Below are positions 50,432 through 63,608 of a stretch of 64,000 bases of DNA, one piece after another; the first letter of the stretch is position 1, and each line of letters begins with the position of its first letter. The stretch spans positions 248,001 through 312,000 of the forward strand of contig NZ_CP094528.1 in assembly GCF_022811705.1 (NCBI RefSeq), read 5' to 3'. A program made the position numbers and the translations under genes. The stretch is from Agromyces larvae. GTDB taxonomy: Bacteria; Actinomycetota; Actinomycetes; Actinomycetales; Microbacteriaceae. The notes below the pieces were generated by a model. It made no database searches. It saw only the letters and a program-made list of their open reading frames with translations, and had not been told where the DNA came from.

Positions 50432-51550
50432 GTGGAGAATCCGACGGAGTTCCGCCTCGAAGGCGACGGCATCGACCTCAGCACGCTGCCGAAGGTGTCG
50501 CTGCACGACCACCTCGACGGCGGCCTGCGGCCGCAGACTGTGCTCGAGCTCGCCGACGAGATCGGGCTCGAGGTGCCGGCCGACGACGCCGAATCGCTCG
50601 CGGCCTGGTTCGCCGAGCAGTCCGACTCGGGGTCCCTCGTCGAATACCTGAAGACGTTCGACCTCACCACCGCGGTGATGCAGACCCGTGAGGGGCTCAC
50701 CCGCGTCGCGCGCGAGTTCGTGCACGATCTCGCCGCGGACGGCGTCGTGTACGGCGAGGTGCGCTGGGCGCCCGAGCAGCACCTCACGGGCGGGCTCAGC
50801 CTCGACGAGGTCGTCGAGGCGGTGCAGGCCGGGCTCGACGAGGGTGCCGACGAGGTGCGCAGCCAGGGTCGTCGCATCCGCACGGGGCAGCTCATCACCG
50901 CGATGCGGCACGCCGACCGCGGCCTCGAGATCGCCGAGCTCGCGGTGCGGCACCGCGATCGCGGGGTCGTCGGGTTCGACATCGCCGGCGCCGAGGCGGG
51001 GTTCCTGCCCAGTCGGCACCGCACCGCGTTCGACTACCTCGCGAGCCGGTTCTTCCCGGTGACCGTGCACGCGGGCGAGGCCGACGGGCTCGAGTCCATC
51101 CGCAGCGCCCTCATCGACGGGCGTGCGCTGCGGCTCGGGCACGGCGTCCGGCTCGCCGAAGACCTCGTGATCGACCGACAGGACGACGAGCACACCTACG
51201 TCACGCTCGGCCCGATCGCCCAGTGGGTGCGCGACCGCGAGATCGCCCTCGAACTGAGCCCGTCATCGAACCTGCAGACCGGCGCGATCGCGGCCTGGGG
51301 CGACGAGCTCATCGACCACCCGTTCGACCTGCTGTACCAGCTCGGCTTCCGGGTCACGGTGAACACCGACAACCGGCTGCAGTCGGGCACCTCGCTCACC
51401 CGCGAACTGGCGCTGCTCGCCGACGTCTTCGGCTACGGCCTCGACGACCTCGAAGTGTTCCAGCTCAACGCGGCTGCCGCGGCGTTCCTGCCGATCGACG
51501 ATCGCGACGAACTCGTCGAGCAGATCGAAGACGGCTTCTCCGAAGCCTGA
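50432..51550 (+). CDS. add: Adenosine deaminase
   Basis: 372 residues from GTG 50432. Zinc ligands 'KVSLHDHLDGGLRP' (HxH), 'VTVHAGEADG' with catalytic Glu, 'RLGHGVRL', and 'NTDNRLQSGTSLTREL' (DN pair). Converts adenosine to inosine for the purine nucleoside phosphorylase encoded at 54244. In the 114 bp upstream nothing specific is visible, so it may have its own weak promoter. Confidence 0.95.
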   Translation: MENPTEFRLEGDGIDLSTLPKVSLHDHLDGGLRPQTVLELADEIGLEVPADDAESLAAWFAEQSDSGSLVEYLKTFDLTTAVMQTREGLTRVAREFVHDLAADGVVYGEVRWAPEQHLTGGLSLDEVVEAVQAGLDEGADEVRSQGRRIRTGQLITAMRHADRGLEIAELAVRHRDRGVVGFDIAGAEAGFLPSRHRTAFDYLASRFFPVTVHAGEADGLESIRSALIDGRALRLGHGVRLAEDLVIDRQDDEHTYVTLGPIAQWVRDREIALELSPSSNLQTGAIAAWGDELIDHPFDLLYQLGFRVTVNTDNRLQSGTSLTRELALLADVFGYGLDDLEVFQLNAAAAAFLPIDDRDELVEQIEDGFSEA

Positions 51551-51579
51551 GAAGGCACCCGCACCCCGAACGGAATCCG

Positions 51580-52062
51580 ATGCCCCTGCCACCCCTGCCC
51601 GATGAGGCCGTCGACATCAGCGCCGACGCCGGCGACTGGCGCGCCGCCGTGCGCGTCGCGGGTCGGGGGCTGGTGCGCTCGGGCGCCGCACGCGCCGAGT
51701 ACACCGACCGCATGATCGCCGTCATCGAGGAGTTCGGGGCGTACGTCGTGATCGCACCCGGACTGGCACTGGCGCACGCGCGGCCCGGTGCCGATGTGCG
51801 GCGCGCCGGCCTGTCAGTCGCGACGCTCGCGACGCCGGTCGCGTTCGGGCACCCGCACAACGACCCGGTGCGGGTCGTCATCGGTCTCGCGGTCGCGAGC
51901 GCCGACGAGCACGTCACGGGCGTGGCGAGCCTCGCGAACGTGTTCAACGACCCCGCCGCGATCGGCCGGCTCACGGCGGCGACCTCCGCCGACGAGGTGC
52001 GCGCGGTGCTGGGCGCATCGGCGACCGGCGACGACGCGGATGCCTCGGAGGTCGCCCCGTGA
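51580..52062 (+). CDS. PTS EIIA component (mannitol/fructose/ascorbate class)
   Basis: 160 residues. PTS_EIIA_2 fold with phosphorylation-site His 66 in 'GLALAHARPG', followed by 'VRRAGLSVATLATPVAFGHPHNDPVRVVIGLA'-type strands. It starts 29 bp after add and overlaps the EIIB start by 4 bases. An EIIC permease is missing from the neighbourhood. Either an unlinked EIIC is served or the pair has a regulatory role in nucleoside/pentose metabolism (inference). Confidence 0.88.
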   Translation: MPLPPLPDEAVDISADAGDWRAAVRVAGRGLVRSGAARAEYTDRMIAVIEEFGAYVVIAPGLALAHARPGADVRRAGLSVATLATPVAFGHPHNDPVRVVIGLAVASADEHVTGVASLANVFNDPAAIGRLTAATSADEVRAVLGASATGDDADASEVAP

Positions 52063-52343
52063 GGATCATCGCCGTGTGCGGCGCCGGCATCGGCACCTCG
52101 GCCATCCTGAAGGTGAACGCCGAACGCGCGCTCGAACGGCTGGGGTTGCGTGCCGACGTGACGGCGAGCGACCTGGCCGGGGTGCGCGATGCCGCCGCCG
52201 ATGCGCAGGTGGTGCTCACGTCCACCGAACTCGCCGCGGCGGTGCGCGAGGCGCTCGGCCGCAGCTACGCCGAGATCCTCGAGGTGACGAACTACTTCGA
52301 CGTCGCCGAGATCTCCCGTGCCCTCGAGAAGTCGCTGGGCTGA
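52059..52343 (+). CDS. PTS EIIB component (ascorbate/lactose class)
   Basis: 94 residues from GTG 52059. P-loop-like 'VCGAGIGTSAILK' with the phosphorylated Cys 7; length and fold of SgaB/UlaB-type EIIB ('AQVVLTSTELAAAV', 'VTNYFDVAEISRALE'). Receives phosphate from the coupled EIIA. The transcript then runs into the 87-bp palindromic repeat B. Confidence 0.88.
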   Translation: MRIIAVCGAGIGTSAILKVNAERALERLGLRADVTASDLAGVRDAAADAQVVLTSTELAAAVREALGRSYAEILEVTNYFDVAEISRALEKSLG

Positions 52344-52377
52344 CCGGCCCCGACACCCCCCCGGGTCGGCCTCACCC

Positions 52378-52464
52378 GTACGCAATTCAGGTTCGCACGC
52401 GGCGTGTCGGCGGTCGACACGGCGTGTCGCCGCCGCGACACACCTCCGAACCTGAATTGCGTAC
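52378..52464. repeat. 87-bp palindromic dispersed repeat, copy B
   Basis: Perfect 18-bp outer arms (52378-52395 / 52447-52464) beginning GTACGCAATTCAGG. Four GTGTCG/CGACAC words alternate inside (52404, 52415, 52424, 52436) and give nested stems. Its reverse complement matches copy C (62117-62203): 28 of 29 bases at one end, 30 of 35 at the other, same 87-bp length. It occupies most of the spacer between convergent EIIB and phosphosugar mutase genes, where it can also act as a terminator. Confidence 0.92.
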
Positions 52465-52478
52465 CGCGAAACGCGGGG

Positions 52479-54200
52479 TCAGGCCACCAGAGCGCGCATG
52501 CCGGCGTCGAGCGCCGCGAGTGCGGCGTGGGCGGCGGCGCGGCGCTCGGCGACGGTGCCCGCGGTCGACACCGTGTCGAGGTACACCTTCAGCTTCGGCT
52601 CGGTGCCGCTCGGTCGCACCATGACGCGCGCGCCGCCGTCGAGCACGATGCGCAGCACGTCCGAGGGGGGCAGATCGCCGTAGCCGTGGGCGAGGTCGTC
52701 GATGCGCTCCACGCGCACGCCGCCGATCTCGGCGGGCGGCGTGGCACGCAGGCGAGCCATCACCTCGGCGATCTTCGTGAGGTCGGTGACGCGAATCGAG
52801 ATCTGGCCCGAGGCGAAGCATCCGAACCGCTCGATGAATGTGTCGAGGTGGTCGGCGACGCTGCGGCCCTCGGCCTTCAACCGCGCCGCGAGCGAGAGGA
52901 ACGCGAGCCCAGCCGAGATGCCGTCCTTGTCGCGCAGCGTGCCCGGGTTGACGAGGTAGCCGAGCGCCTCCTCGTAGCCGAACACCAGCCCGGGGGCGCG
53001 GGAGATCCACTTGAAGCCGGTCAGGGTGCCGCGGAACTCGAGATCGTACGCGCGGGCGATCGCTTCGAGACCGGGGGAGGAGACGATCGAGCAGGCAAGC
53101 GTGCCCTCGGCGCCGCCCTCGCCGCGGGCCGACGCGGTCGCGCGCTCCGCAGCCTGCCACCCGAGGATGAGGCCGACCTCGTTGCCGGTGAGCCGGCGGA
53201 AGCCCTCGGGCGCCGACGGGTCGGGGATCGCGATCGCGAGCCGGTCGGCGTCGGGGTCGTTCGCGATCACCAGGTCGGCGCCGACCTCGCGGGCGCGGGC
53301 GAACGAGAGGTCCATCGCGCCGGGCTCTTCGGGGTTCGGGAACGACACCGTCGGAAACGCCGGGTCGGGCGCGATCTGCTCGTCGACGAGCGCGGGCGCC
53401 GTGAACCCGGCCGCCTCGAGCACGCGCGACATGGTCTGCCAGCCCACGCCGTGCATCGCCGTGTACACGACGCGCGGCTGCGCGCCCGCGGCGGGCGGGG
53501 CATCCGCCACCTGCGCCGTGGCCGTGACGTACGCGTCGACGACGTCCTCGCCGGCGGTCTCGAAGGGGGCGCGCGGCAGTGCGTCGACCGTCGTGGTCGA
53601 CGCCACCCGCAGGATGTGCGCGGCGATCTCGGCGTCGGCGGGCGACACGATCTGCGAGCCGTGGTCGTCACCGCCGAGGTAGACCTTGTAGCCGTTGTCG
53701 TTGGGCGGGTTGTGCGACGCCGTCACCATGACGCCCGCGCTCGCGCCGAGGTGGCGCACCGCGAACGCGAGCACCGGGGTCGGCAGCAGACGGGGCAGCA
53801 GCACGGCCCGCACGCCGGCTCCGGCCATCAGCTCGGCCGAGTCGCGTGCGAACACGTCGGAGTTCTTGCGGCCGTCGTAGCCGATGACGACCGACGGGGT
53901 CGCGCCGGGTTCGGCGCGCTCGAGGAGGTAGGCCGCCAGGCCCGCAGCGGCCTGCGACACGAGCACCCGGTTCATACGGTTCGGGCCCGCGGCGATCTCG
54001 CCGCGCAGACCCGCGGTGCCGAACGCGAGCCGGCCGTCGAAGCGGTCGGCGAGGTCGGCGGCGGCGGCCTGCGCGGCCGGGCCGTCGTCGCCGCGCGCCG
54101 CGTCGAGCAGCCCCTGCAGCTCGGCGCGGGTCTCGGGGTCGGGATCCTGCGCGAGCCACGCCTCGGCGCGGGCGGTGAGGTCGTCGTCGAGCCGGGTCAT
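52479..54200 (-). CDS. Phosphosugar mutase (phosphopentomutase/phosphoglucomutase type)
   Basis: 573 residues from ATG 54200 (AGAGAGGA upstream). alpha-D-phosphohexomutase family: 'FGTAGLRGEIAAGPNRMN', phosphoserine loop 'VMVTASHNPPNDNGYKVY', metal loop 'NDPDADRLAIAI', sugar-binding 'GYEEALGYLV', phosphate-binding 'RPSGTEPKLKVYL'. In this nucleoside-salvage block it most likely turns (deoxy)ribose 1-phosphate into the 5-phosphate, but glucose or mannose phosphates are also possible. Follows the PNP gene by 43 bp. Confidence 0.9.
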   Translation of the reverse strand: MTRLDDDLTARAEAWLAQDPDPETRAELQGLLDAARGDDGPAAQAAAADLADRFDGRLAFGTAGLRGEIAAGPNRMNRVLVSQAAAGLAAYLLERAEPGATPSVVIGYDGRKNSDVFARDSAELMAGAGVRAVLLPRLLPTPVLAFAVRHLGASAGVMVTASHNPPNDNGYKVYLGGDDHGSQIVSPADAEIAAHILRVASTTTVDALPRAPFETAGEDVVDAYVTATAQVADAPPAAGAQPRVVYTAMHGVGWQTMSRVLEAAGFTAPALVDEQIAPDPAFPTVSFPNPEEPGAMDLSFARAREVGADLVIANDPDADRLAIAIPDPSAPEGFRRLTGNEVGLILGWQAAERATASARGEGGAEGTLACSIVSSPGLEAIARAYDLEFRGTLTGFKWISRAPGLVFGYEEALGYLVNPGTLRDKDGISAGLAFLSLAARLKAEGRSVADHLDTFIERFGCFASGQISIRVTDLTKIAEVMARLRATPPAEIGGVRVERIDDLAHGYGDLPPSDVLRIVLDGGARVMVRPSGTEPKLKVYLDTVSTAGTVAERRAAAHAALAALDAGMRALVA

Positions 54201-54243
54201 CCGCTGGTCCTCTCTCAAGCTCGTGCGCTCGGGCCGCAGCCGC

Positions 54244-55071
54244 TCAGATCGCGGCCACGACGTCGGCGAGCAGCCGCGAGATCACCGGTTCGGCGGCGCG
54301 GCCGGCCTCGATGACCTCCTCGTGGCTGAGCGGCGTGGTCTGGATGCCCGCCGCGAGATTGGTGATCAGCGAGAAGCCGAGCACCTCCATGCCGGCCTGG
54401 CGGGCGGCGATCGCCTCGAGCGCGGTCGACATGCCGACGATGTGGCCGCCGATCGTCTTCGCCATCCGCACCTCGGCCGGGGTCTCGTAGTGCGGCCCGC
54501 GGAACTGCACGTACACGCCCTCGTCGAGCTCGGGCGCGAGACCCTTCGCGATCGCGCGCAGCCGCGACGAGTACAGGTCGGTGAGGTCGATGAAGGTCGC
54601 GCCCTCGAGCGGCGAATCGGCGGTGAGGTTGATGTGGTCGCTGATCAGCACCGGGGTGCCCGGCTTCCAGTGCGGCTTGATGCCGCCGGCCCCGTTGGTC
54701 AGGATCATCACGGATGCCCCGGTCGCCGCCGCCGTGCGCACCGAGTGCACCACCCGGCGCACGCCGTGGCCCTCGTAGTAGTGCGTGCGGGCGCCGATGA
54801 CGAGCGCCCGCTTGCCGTTCGGCAGCAGCACCGAGCGCAGCGTGCCGACGTGCCCCTCGAGCGCCGGCTTCGAGAACCCGGGCACCTCGGTGGCCGGGAT
54901 CGTGTGCGTCGTCTCGCCGATCAGCTCGGCGGCGCGGCCCCACCCCGAGCCGAGGGTCAGCGCGAGGTCGTGGTGCTCGACGCCGGTGAGCTCGGCGATG
55001 CGCGCCGCGGCGTCGCGAGCCACCTCGAACGGGTCGGCGGCGGGGTCGTCGAGCGGGTTCAGCTGAGGCAT
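54244..55071 (-). CDS. punA: Purine nucleoside phosphorylase (trimeric type)
   Basis: 275 residues from ATG 55071. 'ALTLGSGWGRAAELIG' (phosphate Ser), 'GRTHYYEGH'-type 'GARTHYYEGHGVRRVVHSVR', 'TNGAGGIKPHWKPGTPVLI', 'YVQFRGPHYETPAEVRM' and 'GMSTALEAIAARQAGMEVLGFSLITNLAAG' (parts) mark the class-1 trimeric enzyme. Splits inosine/guanosine to base and ribose 1-phosphate; functional partner of add and of the adjacent mutase. Confidence 0.95.
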   Translation of the reverse strand: MPQLNPLDDPAADPFEVARDAAARIAELTGVEHHDLALTLGSGWGRAAELIGETTHTIPATEVPGFSKPALEGHVGTLRSVLLPNGKRALVIGARTHYYEGHGVRRVVHSVRTAAATGASVMILTNGAGGIKPHWKPGTPVLISDHINLTADSPLEGATFIDLTDLYSSRLRAIAKGLAPELDEGVYVQFRGPHYETPAEVRMAKTIGGHIVGMSTALEAIAARQAGMEVLGFSLITNLAAGIQTTPLSHEEVIEAGRAAEPVISRLLADVVAAI

Positions 55072-55215
55072 CCCACCATGGTAGTGAGGCGAACCGGATG
55101 CCGCGCCTCGCGCGTGCCGCCCGCCCGAGCCTGCGCAGGCGAGCGGGGCGGGCGTGCGCATCCGAGCGCAGCGCGTGCTCGTATGCGGGGGAGCGCGGAT
55201 GAGAGAATCGAAGCC

Positions 55216-56646
55216 ATGGCCTACGAGTTCGAGCGCACGCAGAGAATCGCCGTCCTCGGAGGGGGGCCCGGCGGGTACGAAGCGGCCCTCGCCGGCGCGC
55301 AACTCGGTGCCGAGGTCACCCTCATCGAGCGGGCCGGCGTCGGCGGTTCGGCGGTGCTCACCGACGTGGTGCCGTCGAAGTCGCTCATCGCGACCGCCGA
55401 GGCGTCGAACGCCGTCAAAGAGGCGGCCGACCTCGGCGTGCAGTTCTACGCGAAGGGCGACCACGAGAAGGCGGTGAAGCCGAAGGTCGCGATCAACCTC
55501 GCCGCCGTCAACAAGCGGCTGCTCGGGCTCGCCGCCCAGCAGTCCGACGACATGCGGCACAACCTCATCGACGCGGGCGTGCACCTCGTGCAGGGCGAGG
55601 GCCGGCTCGACGGACCGAACGCCGTGATCGTGTCGACCGCGAAGGGCGGCACCGACTTCGACCGCATCGAGGCCGACACGCTCGTGATCTCGGTCGGCGC
55701 ATCGCCGCGCATCCTGCCGACCGCCGTGCCCGACGGCGAACGCATCCTCACGTGGACGCAGCTCTATCACCTGCAGCAGGTGCCCGAGCACCTCATCGTC
55801 GTCGGCTCGGGCGTGACGGGGGCCGAGTTCGCCTCCGCGTACCGGGCGCTCGGCGCGAAGGTCACGCTCATCTCGAGCCGAGACCAGGTGCTGCCCGGTG
55901 AGGATCAGGACGCGGCATCCGTCATCGAGAAGGTCTTCACCCGCAACGGGATGAAGGTGCTCAACCGGTCGCGTGCCGAGTCGGTCGTGCGCGACGGCGA
56001 CGAGGTCGTCGCGACCCTCACCGACGGGCGCGAGGTCCGCGGATCGCACTGCCTGATGGCGGTCGGCTCGGTGCCGAACACCGCCGACATCGGGCTCGAG
56101 CAGGCCGGTGTGCAGCTCGCCGAGTCGGGGCACATCCGCGTCAACCGGGTCGCGCGCACGTCCATCCCGAACATCTACGCCGCGGGCGACTGCACGACGT
56201 TCCTCCCGCTCGCCTCGGTCGCCTCGATGCAGGGGCGCACCGCCGTGTTCCACGCCATGGGCGACATCGTGAACCCGCCCGAGAACCGCAACATCACCTC
56301 GAACATCTTCACCCAGCCCGAGATCGCCACGATCGGCTGGACGCAGAAGGAGATCGAAGACGGCGTCGTGCCCGGCGTCGTCTACAAGCTGCCGCTCTCG
56401 TCGAACCCGCGCGCGAAGATGATGGGCATCCGCGAGGGGTTCGTGAAGCTCTTCGCCTCGAACGGGTCGGGGGCGATCATCGGCGGCGTCATCGTCGCGC
56501 CCAAGGCGTCCGAGCTGGTGTTCCCGCTCGCGCTCGCCGTCGAGCACCGGCTCACGGTCGACCAGTTCGCCGAGGCGTTCCCGGTGTACCCGTCGCTGTC
56601 GGGGTCGCTCACGGATGCGGCGCGGGCCATGCACGTGGTTCGATGA
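55216..56646 (+). CDS. NAD(P)H-quinone dehydrogenase, LpdA-like flavoprotein without redox disulfide
   Basis: 476 residues from ATG 55216. FAD motif 'VLGGGPGGYEAALAGAQLG', NAD(P) motif 'VVGSGVTGAEFASAYRALG', second FAD contact 'IYAAGDCT', and C-terminal dimer domain 'PIATVGWT'-like 'PEIATIGWTQ'. At residues 43-56, where dihydrolipoamide dehydrogenases have CxxxxC, the sequence is 'GGSAVLTDVVPSKS', so both redox cysteines are missing. Mycobacterial LpdA (Rv3303c) is a comparable quinone reductase. Divergent from punA; no partner genes. Confidence 0.88.
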   Translation: MAYEFERTQRIAVLGGGPGGYEAALAGAQLGAEVTLIERAGVGGSAVLTDVVPSKSLIATAEASNAVKEAADLGVQFYAKGDHEKAVKPKVAINLAAVNKRLLGLAAQQSDDMRHNLIDAGVHLVQGEGRLDGPNAVIVSTAKGGTDFDRIEADTLVISVGASPRILPTAVPDGERILTWTQLYHLQQVPEHLIVVGSGVTGAEFASAYRALGAKVTLISSRDQVLPGEDQDAASVIEKVFTRNGMKVLNRSRAESVVRDGDEVVATLTDGREVRGSHCLMAVGSVPNTADIGLEQAGVQLAESGHIRVNRVARTSIPNIYAAGDCTTFLPLASVASMQGRTAVFHAMGDIVNPPENRNITSNIFTQPEIATIGWTQKEIEDGVVPGVVYKLPLSSNPRAKMMGIREGFVKLFASNGSGAIIGGVIVAPKASELVFPLALAVEHRLTVDQFAEAFPVYPSLSGSLTDAARAMHVVR

Positions 56647-56654
56647 GGTGAGCG

Positions 56655-56673
56655 ACGCGGCTTCGCGCCGCGT
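56655..56673 (+). terminator. Small hairpin after the flavoprotein gene
   Basis: ACGCGGC-TTCGC-GCCGCGT, perfect 7-bp stem 8 bp after the stop. Weak by size. Confidence 0.4.
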
Positions 56674-56717
56674 ACAGCGGATGGCGCGGGGGCGCCGCAG
56701 TCCGTCAGGGGGATGCC

Positions 56718-58223
56718 ATGAATCTGCGAGTGAAGTCCGTCGAGGCATCCATCGCCGATGCCGCCGATGAGGAACGCAACCTGAAACGCTCCCTCGGCAC
56801 CTGGGATCTCGCCCTCATGGGCATCGCGGTCGCGGTCGGCGCCGGCATCTTCTCGGTCGGGGCGCAAGCGGCGGCGAACTTCGCGGGCCCCAGCGTGATC
56901 CTCTCGTTCATCCTCGCCGCGGTCACGTGCGGGCTCGCGATCATGTGCTACGCCGAATTCGCCTCGACGGTGCCCGTCGCGGGCAGCGCGTACACGTTCA
57001 CGTACGCGACCATGGGCGAACTGCTCGCCTGGATCATCGGGTGGGACCTCATCCTCGAACTGTTCACCGCCGCCGCGGTGCTCGCGAAGTACTGGGGCGT
57101 GTACCTGAGCGAGGCGCTGCTCGCGTTCGACGTGCCGTTGCCCGCGACGTTCGAGGTCGGCGGTGTGTCGATCAGCTGGCCCGCCTTCCTCATCGTCGCG
57201 ATCTTCACCGTGCTGCTGGTGGCCGGCACGAAGCTCACCGCCCGGGTCGGCGCGGTGTTCACGCTCATCAAGGTCGGCATCGTGCTGTTCGTGATCGTCG
57301 TCGGCTTCTTCTTCGTGAAGGCCGCGAACTTCACCCCGTTCATCCCCGAGGCGGTGCCGACCGAGGGCGGAGCATCCGATGCCTGGACCCAGTCCCTGTT
57401 CGCGTGGATGACCGGTGCGGCACCCGCGCAGTACGGGGTGTTCGGCATGCTGGCCGCGGCATCCCTCGTGTTCTTCGCCTTCATCGGCTTCGACGTGGTC
57501 GCGACCAGCGCCGAGGAGGTGCGCGACCCGCAGAAGCGACTGCCGCGCGGCATCTTCCTCGGCCTCGGTATCGTCACGCTGCTGTACGTGCTGGTGTCGA
57601 TCGTGATGACCGGCATGGTGTCGTACCGCGACCTCGCCGCCGAGGAGAGCCCGTCGCTGGCGACCGCGTTCCGGCTGCTCGATCAGGACTGGGCGTCCGC
57701 CGTGATCTCGTTCGGTGCGCTCGCGGGGCTCACGACCGTGATCATGGTGATCCTGCTCGGGCTCGCCCGCATCGTGTTCGCGCTCAGCCGCGACGGGCTG
57801 CTGCCGCGGTGGCTCTCCAAGACCACGGCGCACACCAAGACGCCGGCCCGCGTGCAGATCATCGCCGGCGCCCTCGTGGCCGTCGTGGCGGCGTTCACCG
57901 ACGTCGGCCTGCTCGAGGAGATGATCAACATCGGCACGCTGTCGGCGTTCGTGCTGGTGTCGCTCGGCATCATCGTGCTGCGGCGCACCCGACCCGACCT
58001 GCCCCGCGGATTCCGGGTGCCGTGGTCGCCGTTCCTGCCCATCCTGTCGGCGGTGCTCTGCGTCTGGCTGATGCTGAACCTCACGACCCTCACCTGGGTG
58101 CGGTTCGCGGTGTGGCTCGTGATCGGCATGGCGATCTACCTGCTCTACGGTCGTCGCCGGTCGCGACTGGCGGGCGAACAGGTGAGCGAGGTCGAGCTGC
58201 CGACCGCGCAGGGCGCCGAATAG
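56718..58223 (+). CDS. APC-superfamily amino acid permease (cationic amino acid transporter-like)
   Basis: 501 residues from ATG 56718 with an AGGGGG site upstream. About 12-14 membrane spans; hallmark 'LGTWDLALMGIAVAVGAGIFSVGAQAA' in span 1, 'CYAEFASTVPVAGSAYTFTY', 'FFAFIGFDVVATSAEEVRDPQKRLPRGI' and 'KTPARVQI' (regions given in part). Resembles YhdG/CAT-type permeases that import cationic or branched amino acids with protons. Substrate uncertain. Confidence 0.9.
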   Translation: MNLRVKSVEASIADAADEERNLKRSLGTWDLALMGIAVAVGAGIFSVGAQAAANFAGPSVILSFILAAVTCGLAIMCYAEFASTVPVAGSAYTFTYATMGELLAWIIGWDLILELFTAAAVLAKYWGVYLSEALLAFDVPLPATFEVGGVSISWPAFLIVAIFTVLLVAGTKLTARVGAVFTLIKVGIVLFVIVVGFFFVKAANFTPFIPEAVPTEGGASDAWTQSLFAWMTGAAPAQYGVFGMLAAASLVFFAFIGFDVVATSAEEVRDPQKRLPRGIFLGLGIVTLLYVLVSIVMTGMVSYRDLAAEESPSLATAFRLLDQDWASAVISFGALAGLTTVIMVILLGLARIVFALSRDGLLPRWLSKTTAHTKTPARVQIIAGALVAVVAAFTDVGLLEEMINIGTLSAFVLVSLGIIVLRRTRPDLPRGFRVPWSPFLPILSAVLCVWLMLNLTTLTWVRFAVWLVIGMAIYLLYGRRRSRLAGEQVSEVELPTAQGAE

Positions 58224-58224
58224 G

Positions 58225-58238
58225 GCATCCGGATGCCT
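58225..58238. promoter_or_regulatory. 14-bp palindrome GGCATCC-GGATGCC in intergenic spacer
   Basis: Two head-to-head copies of the window's overused word form a perfect 14-bp palindrome just after the permease stop. It may be a weak terminator or simply part of the word bias. Confidence 0.3.
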
Positions 58239-58308
58239 CGGGCGGACACTCGGCGTCACGCTCGGCAACATCCGCGCGGAGCCTCGAGCGCCTGCCTAGG
58301 CTCCAGCT

Positions 58309-59472
58309 GTGACCGTCACCGAACCGATCGTCCACACCGGCGGGCAACCCAGGCCCGGCGGGCAACCCGAGCTGCAGCGCATCATCCTCGACTGGTTCAT
58401 TCCGCTGACCGGCGATTCCCGCACCGACCTCAGCCAGGGTTCGGCGATGACCTACTCCGGCCAGTCCGCGGCGAGCCCGACGCGCGCACCCGACATCGGG
58501 TACCTCGCGCAGATCGCCCGCGCCGTCGAACACCTCGGTTACCACGCCGTGCTCATCCCGACCGGCGGGCGCAGCGAGGAGAGCTGGACGGTCACCTCGG
58601 CGCTCACCCAGCACACGCGCGAACTCGACTTCCTCGTCGCGTTCCGGCCGGGGCTCGTCTCGCCGACGCTGCAGGCCGAGATCGCCGCCACGTTCCAGCG
58701 CGTGAGCGGCGACCGGCTCCGGGTGAACGTGGTGGTCGGCGGCGACGACGCCGAACAGCGCAGCTACGGCGACCGCATCGGCAAGGACGACCGGTATCGG
58801 CGCGCCGCCGAGTACCTCTCCATCGTGCGCCGGCTGTGGAGCGGTGCGCGCGTCGACCACGCCGGCGAGTTCTACACGATCGAGGGCGCGCAGTTGCCGC
58901 GCCTCGACCGCGTGCCCGAGATCTACCTCGGCGGCTCGTCGGAGGCCGCGATCGAGGTCGCCGCCGAGCACGCCGACGTCTACCTGAGCTGGGGGGAGCC
59001 GCCGGCGCAGGCGGGCGCGAAGATCGACCGGGTGCGGGCGCGGGCCGCCGAGCTCGGGCGAACCCTGCGCTACGGCGTTCGGCTGCACGTCATCGCGCGA
59101 CCGACGAGCGAGGAGGCCTGGCGCATCGCCGATGAGCTCGTCGCCGGGCTCGATCCCGAGGTGGTCGCCGCGGCGCGGGCGTCGTTCCTGGCGTCGGCGT
59201 CGGTCGGCCAACGCCGCCAGGCCGAACTCGTCGGCGGGGGGCTGCGGCGCGAGGACCTCGAGATCGTGCCGGGGCTGTGGGCCGGCGTCGGGCTGGTGCG
59301 CGGCGGAGCGGGCACCGCGCTCGTCGGCAGCTTCGAGGAGGTGGCCCGGCTCATCCGCGAGTACCGCGCGGCGGGATTCGTCGAGTTCGTGCTCTCGGGC
59401 TACCCGCACCTCGAGGAGGCGTACTGGTTCGCCGAGGGTGTGGCGCCGCTGCTGGAGCTCGAGCCCCGCTGA
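58309..59472 (+). CDS. LLM-class flavin-dependent monooxygenase (alkanesulfonate monooxygenase-like)
   Basis: 387 residues from GTG 58309. Luciferase-like TIM barrel: 'WFIPLTGDSRTD' start, 'YHAVLIPTGGRSEESW', 'FLVAFRPGLVSPTLQAEIAATFQR', 'VNVVVGGDDAEQRSYGD', 'EFYTIEGAQL', 'PEIYLGGSSEAAIEVAAEHADVYLSWGE', 'FVEFVLSGYPHLEEAYWFAEGV' (segments in part). Closest to SsuD-type FMNH2-dependent enzymes that desulfonate organosulfonates. No transporter or flavin reductase is adjacent, so the substrate is open. Confidence 0.88.
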   Translation: MTVTEPIVHTGGQPRPGGQPELQRIILDWFIPLTGDSRTDLSQGSAMTYSGQSAASPTRAPDIGYLAQIARAVEHLGYHAVLIPTGGRSEESWTVTSALTQHTRELDFLVAFRPGLVSPTLQAEIAATFQRVSGDRLRVNVVVGGDDAEQRSYGDRIGKDDRYRRAAEYLSIVRRLWSGARVDHAGEFYTIEGAQLPRLDRVPEIYLGGSSEAAIEVAAEHADVYLSWGEPPAQAGAKIDRVRARAAELGRTLRYGVRLHVIARPTSEEAWRIADELVAGLDPEVVAAARASFLASASVGQRRQAELVGGGLRREDLEIVPGLWAGVGLVRGGAGTALVGSFEEVARLIREYRAAGFVEFVLSGYPHLEEAYWFAEGVAPLLELEPR

Positions 59473-59486
59473 GCGACGCGCCCGGG

Positions 59487-59543
59487 TGGGCGCGCGGTCG
59501 CGTGCGCGCGCGGTCGCGTGGGCGCGTGGTCGCGTGGGCGCGC
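59487..59543. repeat. 16-bp GC-rich tandem repeat, 3.5 copies
   Basis: Units start at 59487, 59503, 59519 and 59535, consensus TGGGCGCGCGGTCGCG with one or two changes. It fills nearly all of the 71-bp spacer between two convergent genes and reaches the first base of the carboxylase stop. Possibly a variable-number repeat. Confidence 0.85.
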
Positions 59544-61319
59544 TCAGGCGGCCGGCGCGTCCGCGATCGACAGCAGCAGGTGACCGCTCGAGACGGTGAG
59601 GCCGGTCTCGGCGTTGATCGTGCCGACCACGCCGTCCTTGTGGGCGGTGATGGGCTGCTCCATCTTCATCGCCTCGAGCACGAGGATGAGGTCGCCCTTG
59701 ACGACCTTGTCGCCCTCGGCGACGGCGACCTTCACGACCGTCGCCTGCATGGGCGCCGTGACGGCGTCGCCGGTCGCGGTGTCGACCGCGTGCGACGCGG
59801 CGCGGCGACGCGGGGCGGTGCCGAGGGTCACGGGACGCGGCCCGCCCGAGAGCTTCTTCGGCAGGCTCACCTCGATGCGCTTGCCGGCGACCTCGACCAC
59901 GACCGACTCGCGGGCCTGCGGCCCCTTGGTCTCTTCGAGCTCGCCCGTCCACGGCTCGATCGTGTTGTCGTACTCGGTCTCGATCCAACGGGTGTGCACC
60001 GAGAACGGCTCGTCGCCCTCGGGGGCGAACGCGGGCTGGTTCACGACATCGCGGTGGAACGGCAGCACCGTCGGCAGGCCGGCGACCTCGAACTCGTCGA
60101 GCGCGCGTCGGGCTCGGGCGAGCGCATCCTGACGGGACGACCCCGTGACGATGAGCTTGGCGAGCAGCGAGTCGAACGCGCCCGAGATCTCGTCGCCGGT
60201 GGTGACGCCCGAGTCGACGCGCACGCCGGGGCCGCCGGGGAACCGCAGCACGTGCACGGGGCCGGGGGAGGGCAGGAAGTTGCGGCCCGGGTCCTCCCCG
60301 TTGATGCGGAACTCGAACGAGTGCCCGCTGACGACGGGGTCGGGGTAGTCGAGCACGCCGCCCTCGGCGAGGCGGAACTGCTCGCGCACCAGGTCGAGCC
60401 CGGTGACCTCTTCGGAGACGGGGTGCTCGACCTGCAGGCGGGTGTTCACCTCGAGGAACGAGACCGTGCCGTCCTGCCCGATGAGGAACTCGCAGGTGCC
60501 GGCGCCGACGTACCCGACCTCGCGCAGGATCGCCTTCGACGACGTGTACAGCGCGTCGCGCTGGGCGTCGGTGAGGAACGGCGCGGGCGCCTCTTCGACG
60601 AGCTTCTGGTGGCGGCGCTGCAGCGAGCAGTCGCGGGTCGAGACGACGACGACGTTGCCGTGCGCGTCGGCGAGGCACTGGGTCTCGACGTGGCGCGGCT
60701 TGTCGAGGTACTTCTCGACGAAGCACTCGCCGCGGCCGAAGGCGGCGACGGCCTCACGGGTGGCGGAGTCGAAGAGCTCGGCGACCTCGTCGCGGGTACG
60801 GGCGACCTTGAGGCCTCGCCCGCCGCCGCCGAACGCGGCCTTGATCGCCACGGGCAGACCGTGCTCGTCGACGAACTCGAGCACCTCCGAGGCATCCGCG
60901 ACGGGATTGAGGGTGCCGGGCGCGAGCGGCGCACCCACCTTCTCGGCCACGTGCCGGGCCGAGACCTTGTCGCCGAGGCGTTCGATCGCCTCGGGCGACG
61001 GGCCGATCCAGATGAGGCCGGCGTCGATGATCGCGCGCGCGAAGTCGGCGTTCTCGGCGAGGAACCCGTAGCCGGGGTGCACGGCGTCGGCCCCCGAGCG
61101 GCGGGCGACCGAGAGCAGCTTGTCGATGACGAGGTAGGTCTCGGCGCTGGTCGAGCCGTCGAGGGCGTACGCCTCGTCGGCGAGCTTCGCGTGCCGGGCG
61201 TCGCGGTCCTGGTCGGCGTAGACGGCGACCGAGGAGATGCCGGCGTCCCGAGCGGCCCGGATGACACGAACGGCGATCTCGCCCCGGTTGGCGATCAGGA
61301 CCTTGGTGATGCGCGGCAT
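59544..61319 (-). CDS. accA3: Biotin-dependent acyl-CoA carboxylase alpha subunit (biotin carboxylase + BCCP)
   Basis: 591 residues. Biotin carboxylase part (1-~445): '[17 protein letters not shown]', ATP loop '[12 protein letters not shown]', '[16 protein letters not shown]'. The C-terminal biotinyl domain has '[10 protein letters not shown]' with the biotinylated Lys at ~552. Such actinobacterial alpha subunits serve acetyl- and propionyl-CoA carboxylases together with separate beta subunits, which are not in this window. Single gene here; 105 bp separate it from maf. Confidence 0.95.
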
Positions 61320-61424
61320 ATCTCAAGGCTATTCAGATGCGCGCAACCGCCTTTGGGTGACCTCCACAAAAAGACCTCCAGAACTCGTATCAGGGTCGAC
61401 AAGGGTTCGGATGCCCCGGATCGG

Positions 61425-62066
61425 TCAGCCGACCCGGTTCCAGAGGCTCGTCCACGTGCCGCCGAGCTCGCGCACCAGTTCGCGCAGCGTCGACAGGCTG
61501 AGGCCGACCACCGTCGACGGGTCGCCGTCGACGCGCCGGATGAACGGGCCGCCGAGGCTGTCGATCGTGAACGCGCCGGCCACCGCGAGCGGTTCCCCGG
61601 TCGCGATGTAGGCGTCGATCTCGGTGTCGTCGAGTTCGGCGAAGGTGACGGATGCCGCATCCGGCCGCCCGATCGCGGCACCGGGCCGCCCGCCCCGATG
61701 GTCGATCAGCCAGTGCCCGCTCCAGAGCAGCCCGGTGCGCCCGTGCTGCGCCGCCCACCGTTCGCGGGCGACCTCGGGGCGGTGCGGCTTGCCGTGCAGC
61801 GCGCCGTCGACGAGGAACGCCGAATCGCCGCCGAGCACGAACCCGTCGATCGGCTCGCCGCCTGGGCGGGATCCGAGGATCGCCTCGGCCTTCGCCCGGG
61901 CCAGCAGCTGCACGAGCGCCGGCGCGTCGAGCGGACCGTGCTCGGCCTCGTGCTCGGCGACGAGCGCCTCCTCGTCGACGCCGGGCGACACGGTCACCGG
62001 CTCGATGCCGGCCTGGCGCAGCAGCTGGAGGCGGGCGGGAGACGTCGAGGCGAGGTACAGGCGCAT
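61425..62066 (-). CDS. maf: Maf-type nucleoside triphosphate pyrophosphatase
   Basis: 213 residues from ATG 62066. 'YLASTSPARLQLLRQAGI' (start motif S-x-S-P-R), 'KAEAILGSRPGG', 'VLGGDSAFLVDGALHGKPH', 'YIATGEPLAVAGAFTIDSLGGPFI'. The catalytic acid is in 'GGDSAF' (Asp). Cleans up non-canonical nucleotides or restrains septum formation. In many actinomycetes maf stands beside acyl-CoA carboxylase genes, as here. Confidence 0.93.
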   Translation of the reverse strand: MRLYLASTSPARLQLLRQAGIEPVTVSPGVDEEALVAEHEAEHGPLDAPALVQLLARAKAEAILGSRPGGEPIDGFVLGGDSAFLVDGALHGKPHRPEVARERWAAQHGRTGLLWSGHWLIDHRGGRPGAAIGRPDAASVTFAELDDTEIDAYIATGEPLAVAGAFTIDSLGGPFIRRVDGDPSTVVGLSLSTLRELVRELGGTWTSLWNRVG

Positions 62067-62116
62067 GCCCCCATCCTGCCGCGCACCCGCCCGCCCCCGC
62101 CCGCCCCCTCCGCCAT

Positions 62117-62203
62117 GTACGCAATTCAGGTGCGGAGGTGTGTCGGCCGGCGTGTCGCGGCACTGAATGGCCGACACGCCGTGCGCGCTCCTGAATTGCG
62201 TAC
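62117..62203. repeat. 87-bp palindromic dispersed repeat, copy C
   Basis: Inverted copy of the element at 52378. Arms extend to 19 bp (62112-62130 / 62190-62208), the core termini again being GTACGCAATTCAGG and its complement. An inner stem GTGTCGGCC (62140-62148) pairs with GGCCGACAC (62169-62177). It lies between the divergent maf and TrmA-type genes, so it cannot be explained as a terminator alone. Confidence 0.92.
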
Positions 62204-62270
62204 ATGGCTGGACTGGGTACTTGACGGGGCGGAGGGGGCGGGGCGGGGTGCGAGCGGGCAGGATGGAAGG

Positions 62271-63608
62271 ATGGCCCGCCCCTCCCGCCACCGCACGTCC
62301 AGCCCCACGGGTGCCAAGCGCACCGCGCACCCGCGGCGCCGCACGCCCGCGGCCCCGGTCGCCGGCCCCGAGCTCGAGCTCGACGTCGAGCGCATCGCGC
62401 ACGGCGGCGTCGCGGTCGCCCGGCACGAGGGGCGCGTCGTGTTCGTCGCCGACGCGATCCCTGGCGAACGCGTCCGCGCGCAGGTGACCGACGCGAGCCG
62501 CGACCGGTTCTGGCGGGCCGAGACCCTCGAGGTGCTCGACGCGTCGCCCGACCGCCGCGAGCACGTGTGGGCCGAGGCATCCGTCGACCGCGCGCCCGAG
62601 CAGCGGGCGGGCGGGGCCGAGTTCGGCCACATCCGGATGCACCGCCAGCGCGCCCTGAAGGCGGAGGTGCTGCAGGACGCCCTCGCGCGCATGGCGGGCG
62701 AGCAGCGCGAGGTGGTGGTCGTGGCCGTCGACGACGCGCTCGCCCCCGGCGTCGACGTCGAGGCGGGCACCGGGTGGCGCACCCGGGTCCGCCTGCACGT
62801 CGACGACGAGGGCCGGGTCGGCCCGTACGCGGCGCGCAGCCACCGGGTCGTTCCGGTCGCTAGCCTGCCGCTCGCGGCGACCGCTCTGCAGGGCATCGCG
62901 CCGCTCGGCACCCGCTTCGACGGGGCGGTCGAGTCGGTCGAGCTCGTCGCGCCGACCGGGGGCGGAGCATCCGTCGTCGTGCGCCGGGCGGGCGATCCGC
63001 GCGAGGCCGCACCCGAGATCGTCGAACTGGTCGGCGATCGGCGATTCCGGCTCGCGCGCGATGGGTTCTGGCAGGTGCACCGCGGCGCCGCGGCGACCCT
63101 CACCCGGGCCGTGCAGCAGGCGATCGACCCCGACCGGTTCGACCTCGCCGCCGAGCACCTCGACCTCTACGGCGGCGTGGGCCTGCTCGCCGCCGCCGTC
63201 GGCGATCGGTTCGGGTCGACGCTGCGCATCACCTCCGTCGAGGCCGACGCGCGCGCGACCGAGCACGCCGGCGCGAACCTCGCCGACTTCGTGGGCGCCC
63301 GGGCGGTGACGGCGCGAGTCGACCGGTTCCTCACCGAACTCGGGCGATCGGATGCGTCGCGGAGCATCCGCGGCGGCACGATCGTGCTGGACCCGCCGCG
63401 CTCGGGCGCCGGACGCGACGTCGTCGCCGGGGTGGCCGCGCTGCACCCCGCGCAGGTGGTCTACGTCGCGTGCGATCCGGTTGCGCTCGCGCGCGACGTC
63501 GCGACCTTCCGCGATCTCGGCTACGGGCTCGAGGAACTGCGCGCATTCGACCTGTTCCCGAACACGCACCACGTCGAGGCCGTCGCGCGGCTGAGCGCTA
63601 TCGTGTGA
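62271..63608 (+). CDS. TrmA/RlmD-type class I SAM-dependent RNA methyltransferase
   Basis: 445 residues from ATG 62271 (GGAAGG upstream). N-terminal basic tail, TRAM-like domain ('ELELDVERIAHGGVAVARHEGRVVFVADAIPGERVRAQV' in part), then methyltransferase with 'DLYGGVGLLAAAVGDRFG', 'SVEADARATEHAGANLAD' and catalytic 'VYVACDPVALARDV' (Cys nucleophile), 'FDLFPNTHHVEAVARL' (base Glu). The Cys cluster for an Fe-S centre seen in RlmD/RumA is not obvious. Makes m5U in tRNA or rRNA. Confidence 0.92.
   Translation: MARPSRHRTSSPTGAKRTAHPRRRTPAAPVAGPELELDVERIAHGGVAVARHEGRVVFVADAIPGERVRAQVTDASRDRFWRAETLEVLDASPDRREHVWAEASVDRAPEQRAGGAEFGHIRMHRQRALKAEVLQDALARMAGEQREVVVVAVDDALAPGVDVEAGTGWRTRVRLHVDDEGRVGPYAARSHRVVPVASLPLAATALQGIAPLGTRFDGAVESVELVAPTGGGASVVVRRAGDPREAAPEIVELVGDRRFRLARDGFWQVHRGAAATLTRAVQQAIDPDRFDLAAEHLDLYGGVGLLAAAVGDRFGSTLRITSVEADARATEHAGANLADFVGARAVTARVDRFLTELGRSDASRSIRGGTIVLDPPRSGAGRDVVAGVAALHPAQVVYVACDPVALARDVATFRDLGYGLEELRAFDLFPNTHHVEAVARLSAIV

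Follow-up and report, generated by a model that had tools for sequence, protein, structure and literature searches.

A fixed-span palindromic repeat of Agromyces larvae and its association with an AbiEi/DUF559 nuclease gene

The window analyzed here, a stretch of 64,000 nucleotides (bases 248001-312000) from the 4.0 Mb, single-contig genome of Agromyces larvae (G000), carries two inverted copies of an 87-bp palindrome. We propose that this palindrome is probably a REPIN-like, non-autonomous dispersed element, REPINs being paired forms of repetitive extragenic palindromic (REP) sequences, and that its cognate enzyme is a single-copy protein joining an AbiEi winged helix to a Vsr/EDxHD-like (DUF559) nuclease, encoded elsewhere in the genome between two copies of the element. 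Comparison among genomes (labelled G0xx; fetched loci, L0xx) shows that the element spreads as a bare unit, that element number tracks the gene, that the ends and the protein change together, and that such genes are often flanked by a repeat of their own. The association between repeat and gene is well supported; the way in which the nuclease would copy the repeats is our inference.

The palindrome belongs to a sizable family. We found 43 paired copies in G000, read from fetched stretches and the window, where the first-pass annotation had started from two copies and expected more. Allowing at most two mismatches, the arm occurs 41 + 47 times genome-wide, against 3 + 2 occurrences of a reversed control pattern; with the 43 pairs, this argues that the family is not due to chance. 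The length is 87 bp in 33 copies, 86 bp in eight and 88 bp in two, the latter trimmed by one base in the comparisons that follow. Pairwise identity reaches 0.99 at positions 5-14 and 0.97 at positions 74-83 (GCAATTCAGG and its complement), and 37 of the 43 copies have two perfect 10-bp ends (four have one mismatch, two have two); these end-conservation figures call for caution, as copies were located via their ends with up to four mismatches per 14-base arm. Identity falls to 0.62 and 0.64 in the zones with the inner GTGTCG/CGACAC words and to only 0.38 in the central 23 bp. The consensus end is GTACGCAATTCAGG, which is not the GTAG tag as defined in the available part of PMC3733652.

We then compared the parts of the element with the whole. 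GTGTCG usually lies three bases nearer the element end in one arm than in the other, and the summed variance of the three parts far exceeds that of total length in G000 (2.5 vs 0.16), G005 (4.0 vs 0.00) and G017 (4.3 vs 0.19), in the 39 of 43, 11 of 16 and 27 of 27 copies, respectively, that have both GTGTCG words in place. Since the parts vary in length around a nearly fixed total, what is kept constant is the distance spanned from one end to the other. Compensatory changes were seen in none of 17 consensus pairs within G000, so it is the end sequence itself that is conserved; this favors sequence-specific recognition over structure alone. Between species, both arms of the palindrome do change together.

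Two pairs of G000 copies are nearly identical although they lie far apart round the circle: 3192198/3782113 (94% identity, 590 kb) and 195319/3756308 (91%, 444 kb). Their 40-bp flanks share only 20-50% identity. Among 15 loci examined in G017, copies 23 and 58 kb apart are 96% and 95% identical with unrelated flanks, and two identical copies 181 bp apart also differ in their flanks. Near-identical copies in unrelated surroundings indicate that the spreading unit is the bare element. The sister genome G004, which matches G000 at roughly 85-98% over most of the fetched gene stretches, provides empty sites, a check that the first-pass annotation had called for. Of the 43 G000 sites, 19 could be compared: seven hold a copy, an eighth is doubtful, and 11 lack the repeat, absence meaning more than six mismatches in the 20 end positions at the best place. 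The doubtful copy, at site 3192198, has six mismatches within a 6.9-kb gap and is probably a chance match. In the retained copies, 17 of 140 end positions are off consensus in G004, against 4 of 140 in the same copies of G000. The ends have decayed in G004, which we take as supporting evidence only, because the G000 copies were found via their ends, which favors them.

Target duplications of at least 4 bp outside the element were found in 0 of 43 copies (0.3 expected by chance) and, counting the outer four bases of the element as the target, in 1 of 28 informative copies. Flank-specific complementarity around the G000 copies did not exceed chance. Within G000 we found no longer element with matching ends, every end with zero or one mismatch belonging to a pair of about 87 bp. 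A search for the Y1 transposase of the REP-associated tyrosine transposase (RAYT) type (PF01797) gave no match in 30 genomes, G000 and 29 relatives; the control was positive in 5 of 14. The earlier suggestion of a REP-type or MITE-type family (MITE, miniature inverted-repeat transposable element) thus holds insofar as the family is dispersed, mobile and without an Rfam match, whereas the helpers proposed for it (a RAYT, or an insertion sequence with matching ends and target duplications) were not found.

Several observations concern the flanks and the sites themselves. Reading inward, both flanks of the 43 G000 copies are C-rich (mean C-G skew +0.39 and +0.33 over the first 20 bp; window examples at 52340-52377 and 62204-62260); the skew fades by about 100 bp and is near 0 in 48 control gaps. 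C-rich flanks also accompany 27 G017 copies (skew 0.35) and 16 G005 copies (0.57). By eye, tandem repeats of 14-22 bp, made of the last 8-14 element bases plus 3-9 flank bases, were seen at the element edge of G000 copies 195319, 2527722, 3212860, 3334658, 3404233, 3631677 and 3756308; they are possibly traces of repeated nicking or slippage. G017 contains longer tandem arrays with element plus flank in each unit (L075 4250-4763, 2.9 units of 177 bp; L076 426-965, 2.5 units of 214 bp). At sites matching G000 3169983, 3634157 and 3680264, G004 has other palindromes, GAAAACAGGATGAG, GGAACACATTCGAGG and TTTTCAGGAGGAATC; GAAAACAGGATGAG and GGAACACATTCGAGG also adjoin DUF559 genes of G004 (L253, L254).

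No partner gene was seen in the window. The proposed one lies at G000:C1:3755293-3756135, where a single gene, encoding 280 amino acids, is bracketed by two copies of the element; the same AbiEi/DUF559 gene is bracketed by a pair of copies in G005. The protein contains AbiEi_4 (PF13338) and DUF559 (PF04480) domains. For its N-terminal part, PADLOC gave AbiEi matches (best E 4e-10) and NCBIfam gave none. The DUF559 domain has a predicted fold like that of Vsr and the homing endonuclease I-Bth0305I, and E189, D216, H232 and D241 are invariant in 30 of 30 proteins, the assignment to the E, D, H, D motif being by order only, not by superposition. The neighbors in G000, judged by eye and not by a family search, are sugar ABC permeases and an ABC exporter; no toxin gene was recognized.

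A comparison of 60 Agromyces genomes found close orthologues (58-68% identity, more than 300 bits) only in G000, G015 (A. terreus, of the same genus), G017 and G005, the next best protein being 38% identical. These are also the genomes richest in the repeat: a model built from G000, searched on both strands with Infernal's stricter filters, gave at least 74 matches in G000, 30 in G015, at least 74 in G017 and 49 in G005, against 18 or fewer in all others. When G000 is left out, G015, G017 and G005 are still the top three of 59. Each of the four genomes has one close match, at the same chromosomal site and with element copies on both sides, those of G015 having altered outermost bases; the gene is apparently inherited vertically. 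In G004, the best match to the protein is 36% identical, and the matching interval showed neither gene nor element. We also considered whether copies cluster around the gene. They lie nearer to it than random (135 and 9 of 20000 simulations, which used 66 of the 67 G017 positions), yet 21% and 29% of other centers do better, and this argument was dropped. G000 has a second AbiEi/DUF559 gene at 624584-625411 of the same contig (L181, L256), with a 72-bp palindrome of its own (arms GCGTAGGAGAT) seen on one side.

End sequences vary with the genome. In G017, no element carries the end pair of G000; this genome instead has 67 elements with GCAATGCAGG, as perfect 11-bp ends, on both sides, and the two copies flanking the G017 gene have the same end. 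Single copies in G010 and G002 end in ACGCAGG, and another G002 copy has GCAATTCAGG at one end. Both arms thus change jointly, as one would expect if a single protein recognizes every copy within a genome.

Other AbiEi/DUF559 genes have flanking palindromes too, built on different arms. We scored a locus as positive when exact 10-bp arms on one side recurred on the other with at most one mismatch each and at similar spacing. In a named-genome search across Microbacteriaceae, 32 of 49 loci (the near full-length matches out of 61) were positive, against 0 of 276 shifted positions; a control with mismatched loci gave 24 of 294, as expected where subfamilies share arms. Palindromes satisfying this rule were also present at 14 of the 30 loci tested in Agromyces and at 31 of 47 other loci, the 47-locus retest leaving out L182 (the same locus as L136) and L241. 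A class-wide draw gave 7 positives among the 30 loci returned (from the 67 of 197 genomes with a match), five of them outside the window's family, with 0 of 28 in outer-flank controls. Among ten extra gene loci, two had matching palindromes on both sides, four on one side (L247 being of low complexity) and four had none. The more alike two proteins are, the more alike their arms (Mantel r 0.635 for the 975 pairs with identity below 75%; 0 of 2000 permutations), a correlation to which shared ancestry contributes. The inner GGCGTGTCG/CGACACGCC word recurs across families, in 29 of 90 elements where shuffling predicts 3.1.

Two of these families were followed through genomes and are dispersed as well. 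In the GCGGATATACGATCCG family, whose elements measure about 66 bp, the number of arms per strand is 32 in G063, 13 in G002, 12 in G018 and 10 in G043 (at most two mismatches), and its gene lies between two copies at a shared locus in six genomes, one of them comparable on one side only. The CATAACTCCTGC family, of about 92 bp (the listed copies measure 89-91 bp between arms, apart from a single one of 100), is represented by 17 copies in G260, including the two that flank its gene, and by 10 in G337; 5 of 199 genomes of the family have any. In G035 (C1:1176355-1177131), two copies of the 66-bp repeat enclose a match to the nuclease gene that is interrupted by an in-frame stop, and this genome still has several copies of the repeat. 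Separately, the translation of a beta-glucosidase-like gene (L028 441-2996) shows in-frame tandem repetition of PELVEGESLRRAQRAGEF and its variants, apparently a further repeat family within coding sequence.

In the window, the features are as follows.

52378..52464, minus strand: copy 1 of the 87-bp palindrome, between convergent genes, with the short-arm GGAGG end on the right
52378..52391, plus strand: end motif of copy 1, GTACGCAATTCAGG, whose core GCAATTCAGG is 97-99% identical in 43 copies
52451..52464, minus strand: end motif of copy 1, inverted
62117..62203, plus strand: copy 2 of the same palindrome, in a gap between divergent gene starts
62117..62130, plus strand: end motif of copy 2
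62190..62203, minus strand: end motif of copy 2, inverted

The positions and equal lengths given in the first-pass annotation proved correct, as did its alignment of the two copies as reverse complements: one end agrees at 28 of 29 positions, the opposite end at 30 of 35 and the middle at 3 of 23, which makes 61 of 87 overall. Its placement of one copy between convergent and the other between divergent genes also stands. By our reading of gene names and starts, copy 1 lies between a plus-strand open reading frame (ORF) ending at 52343 and a phosphoglucomutase-like minus-strand ORF (52479-54218), and its site holds an orthologous copy in genome G030 (L131). Copy 2 lies between the starts of a Maf-like minus-strand ORF (62066) and a methyltransferase-like plus-strand ORF (62271). 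The gene caller's longer version of the Maf-like ORF overlaps copy 2, which we take as an artefact. By this home-made caller, 40 of the 43 G000 copies are outside genes and three, including window copy 2, overlap one; 24 lie between same-direction genes, 13 between convergent and 3 between divergent genes, against 87, 29 and 33 background gaps in the same stretches.

Our model suggests how such an element might be copied. One protein unit would bind each conserved arm, the winged helices of a dimer holding the two ends, and the fixed 87-bp span would be the footprint of that dimer. The nuclease domains would nick or cut the element, and replication or repair of the cut DNA would insert new copies between genes with no duplication of the target. 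Under selection for binding, ends and span would stay constant and the unbound middle would drift. The model would account for these constant and drifting parts, for the lack of target duplication, for decay after gene loss and for the species-specific ends. The C-rich flanks and the tandem repeats at the element edge are not explained by this mechanism by itself.

The conserved ends and span resemble a protein-binding site, and AbiEi_4 is by its Pfam name a transcriptional-regulator domain. One could hence regard the protein mainly as a DNA-binding regulator and the palindromes as its operators, which duplication would have scattered and a regulatory role preserved. We consider this unlikely: only 3 of 40 intergenic copies lie at divergent promoters, where about 9 would be expected from the background (33 of 149), copies lie on both the upstream and the downstream side of the gene, distant loci carry near-identical bare copies, and the proteins retain an invariant nuclease core. 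A terminator or structured RNA kept by selection, with no mobility, would fit a strong intergenic palindrome with 13 of 40 copies between convergent genes. It seems highly improbable to us, given that one window copy lies between divergent starts and that the 17 consensus pairs lack compensatory change within G000; moreover, no Rfam match rose above the gathering score in window positions 51000-63500, and the gene association would be left unexplained.

Inverted ends, small size and dispersed copies would also suit a MITE of an undetected DDE-type insertion sequence. We give this little credence, as target duplications do not exceed chance, the near-perfect ends in G000 all belong to pairs of about 87 bp, and the gene that tracks the repeat is by its domains not a DDE transposase. 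A classical REPIN mobilized by a RAYT would share the layout, with conserved inverted ends, a variable spacer and a single-copy gene flanked by repeats; with PF01797 unmatched in G000 and 29 relatives and an end that differs from the GTAG tag, we see next to no chance of it. The reading that we prefer is that of a REPIN-like element with an AbiEi/DUF559 nuclease as its enzyme.

How does this system relate to known ones? According to the available portion of PMC3116915, two conserved inverted ends plus spacer form the copying unit of a REPIN, and in the GI type the first base of one 16-mer is 71 bp from that of the other. RAYTs are described as single-copy and vertically inherited, and REPINs as commoner in genomes with a RAYT gene (PMC8049555, in part). 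As far as these sources go, the Agromyces system is alike in having an inverted-end pair as unit, a single-copy, apparently vertically inherited gene and repeats that are commoner with the gene. It differs in its protein (AbiEi winged helix and Vsr/EDxHD-like nuclease, not an HUH tyrosine transposase), in lacking the GTAG tag, in a span held to about 1 bp and in being actinobacterial. Since the search turned up no tyrosine transposase and GTAG is missing from the ends, we place it outside REPIN/RAYT by membership, while it is alike by lifestyle. In the portion of PMC3733652 available, GTAG/CGTC REPs and TIRtrons comprise an enzyme gene flanked by family-specific inverted repeats, some dispersed; the GTAG REP and TIRtron enzymes are tyrosine transposases, and the CGTC repeats have no known partner. 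The Agromyces gene is likewise flanked by its own inverted repeats, but its enzyme is not a tyrosine transposase. MITEs too are short and non-autonomous with inverted ends, whereas the Agromyces element has no target duplication and no parent insertion sequence was seen in G000.

Unlike I-Bth0305I (an EDxHD homing endonuclease, PDB 3r3p) and Vsr (1cw0), the Agromyces protein is encoded between two dispersed palindrome copies and has an AbiEi-type domain as its putative DNA-binding part. Compared with the AbiEi antitoxin (PDB 6y8q), it is fused to a predicted nuclease, and no adjoining toxin gene was recognized by eye at the G000 locus. Among open PMC papers, outside preprints and most subscription journals, we found none that ties DUF559, AbiEi or Vsr-type nucleases to dispersed palindromes; nor did this link appear in the available sections of PMC3733652, PMC3116915, PMC3943268, PMC3710099 and PMC8049555. 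The Vsr-type domain of MTES_1575 is mentioned, in the section of PMC3710099 available, only within a large fusion protein.

More broadly, we hypothesize, at about even odds, a categorically new class of bacterial mobile repeat present in much of the Actinomycetes. It would consist of populations of palindromes with a fixed span, for each of which a dedicated AbiEi-guided Vsr/EDxHD nuclease would do the copying in trans; with an origin separate from the HUH/RAYT system, it would use restriction- or homing-type cleavage instead of any known transposase chemistry. Many genes annotated as DUF559 or AbiEi antitoxin domain proteins would then be its enzymes. There is a real chance that the system merits a class of its own, beyond a REPIN/RAYT variant. 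In the literature compared, as far as its available parts go, REP/REPIN repeats with a known enzyme depend on RAYT tyrosine transposases, a single enzyme class. With its fixed span and species-specific ends, the Agromyces system lends itself to a direct test of the protein-DNA code, and several families serve as natural replicates. If our proposal is true, a second, unrelated enzyme has converged on the same lifestyle, in which one tame gene and dozens of small palindromes both outlast species splits. Within-genome repeat populations would then be a general outcome, and a set of actinobacterial genes whose sole annotation is DUF559 or AbiEi-domain protein would gain a function.

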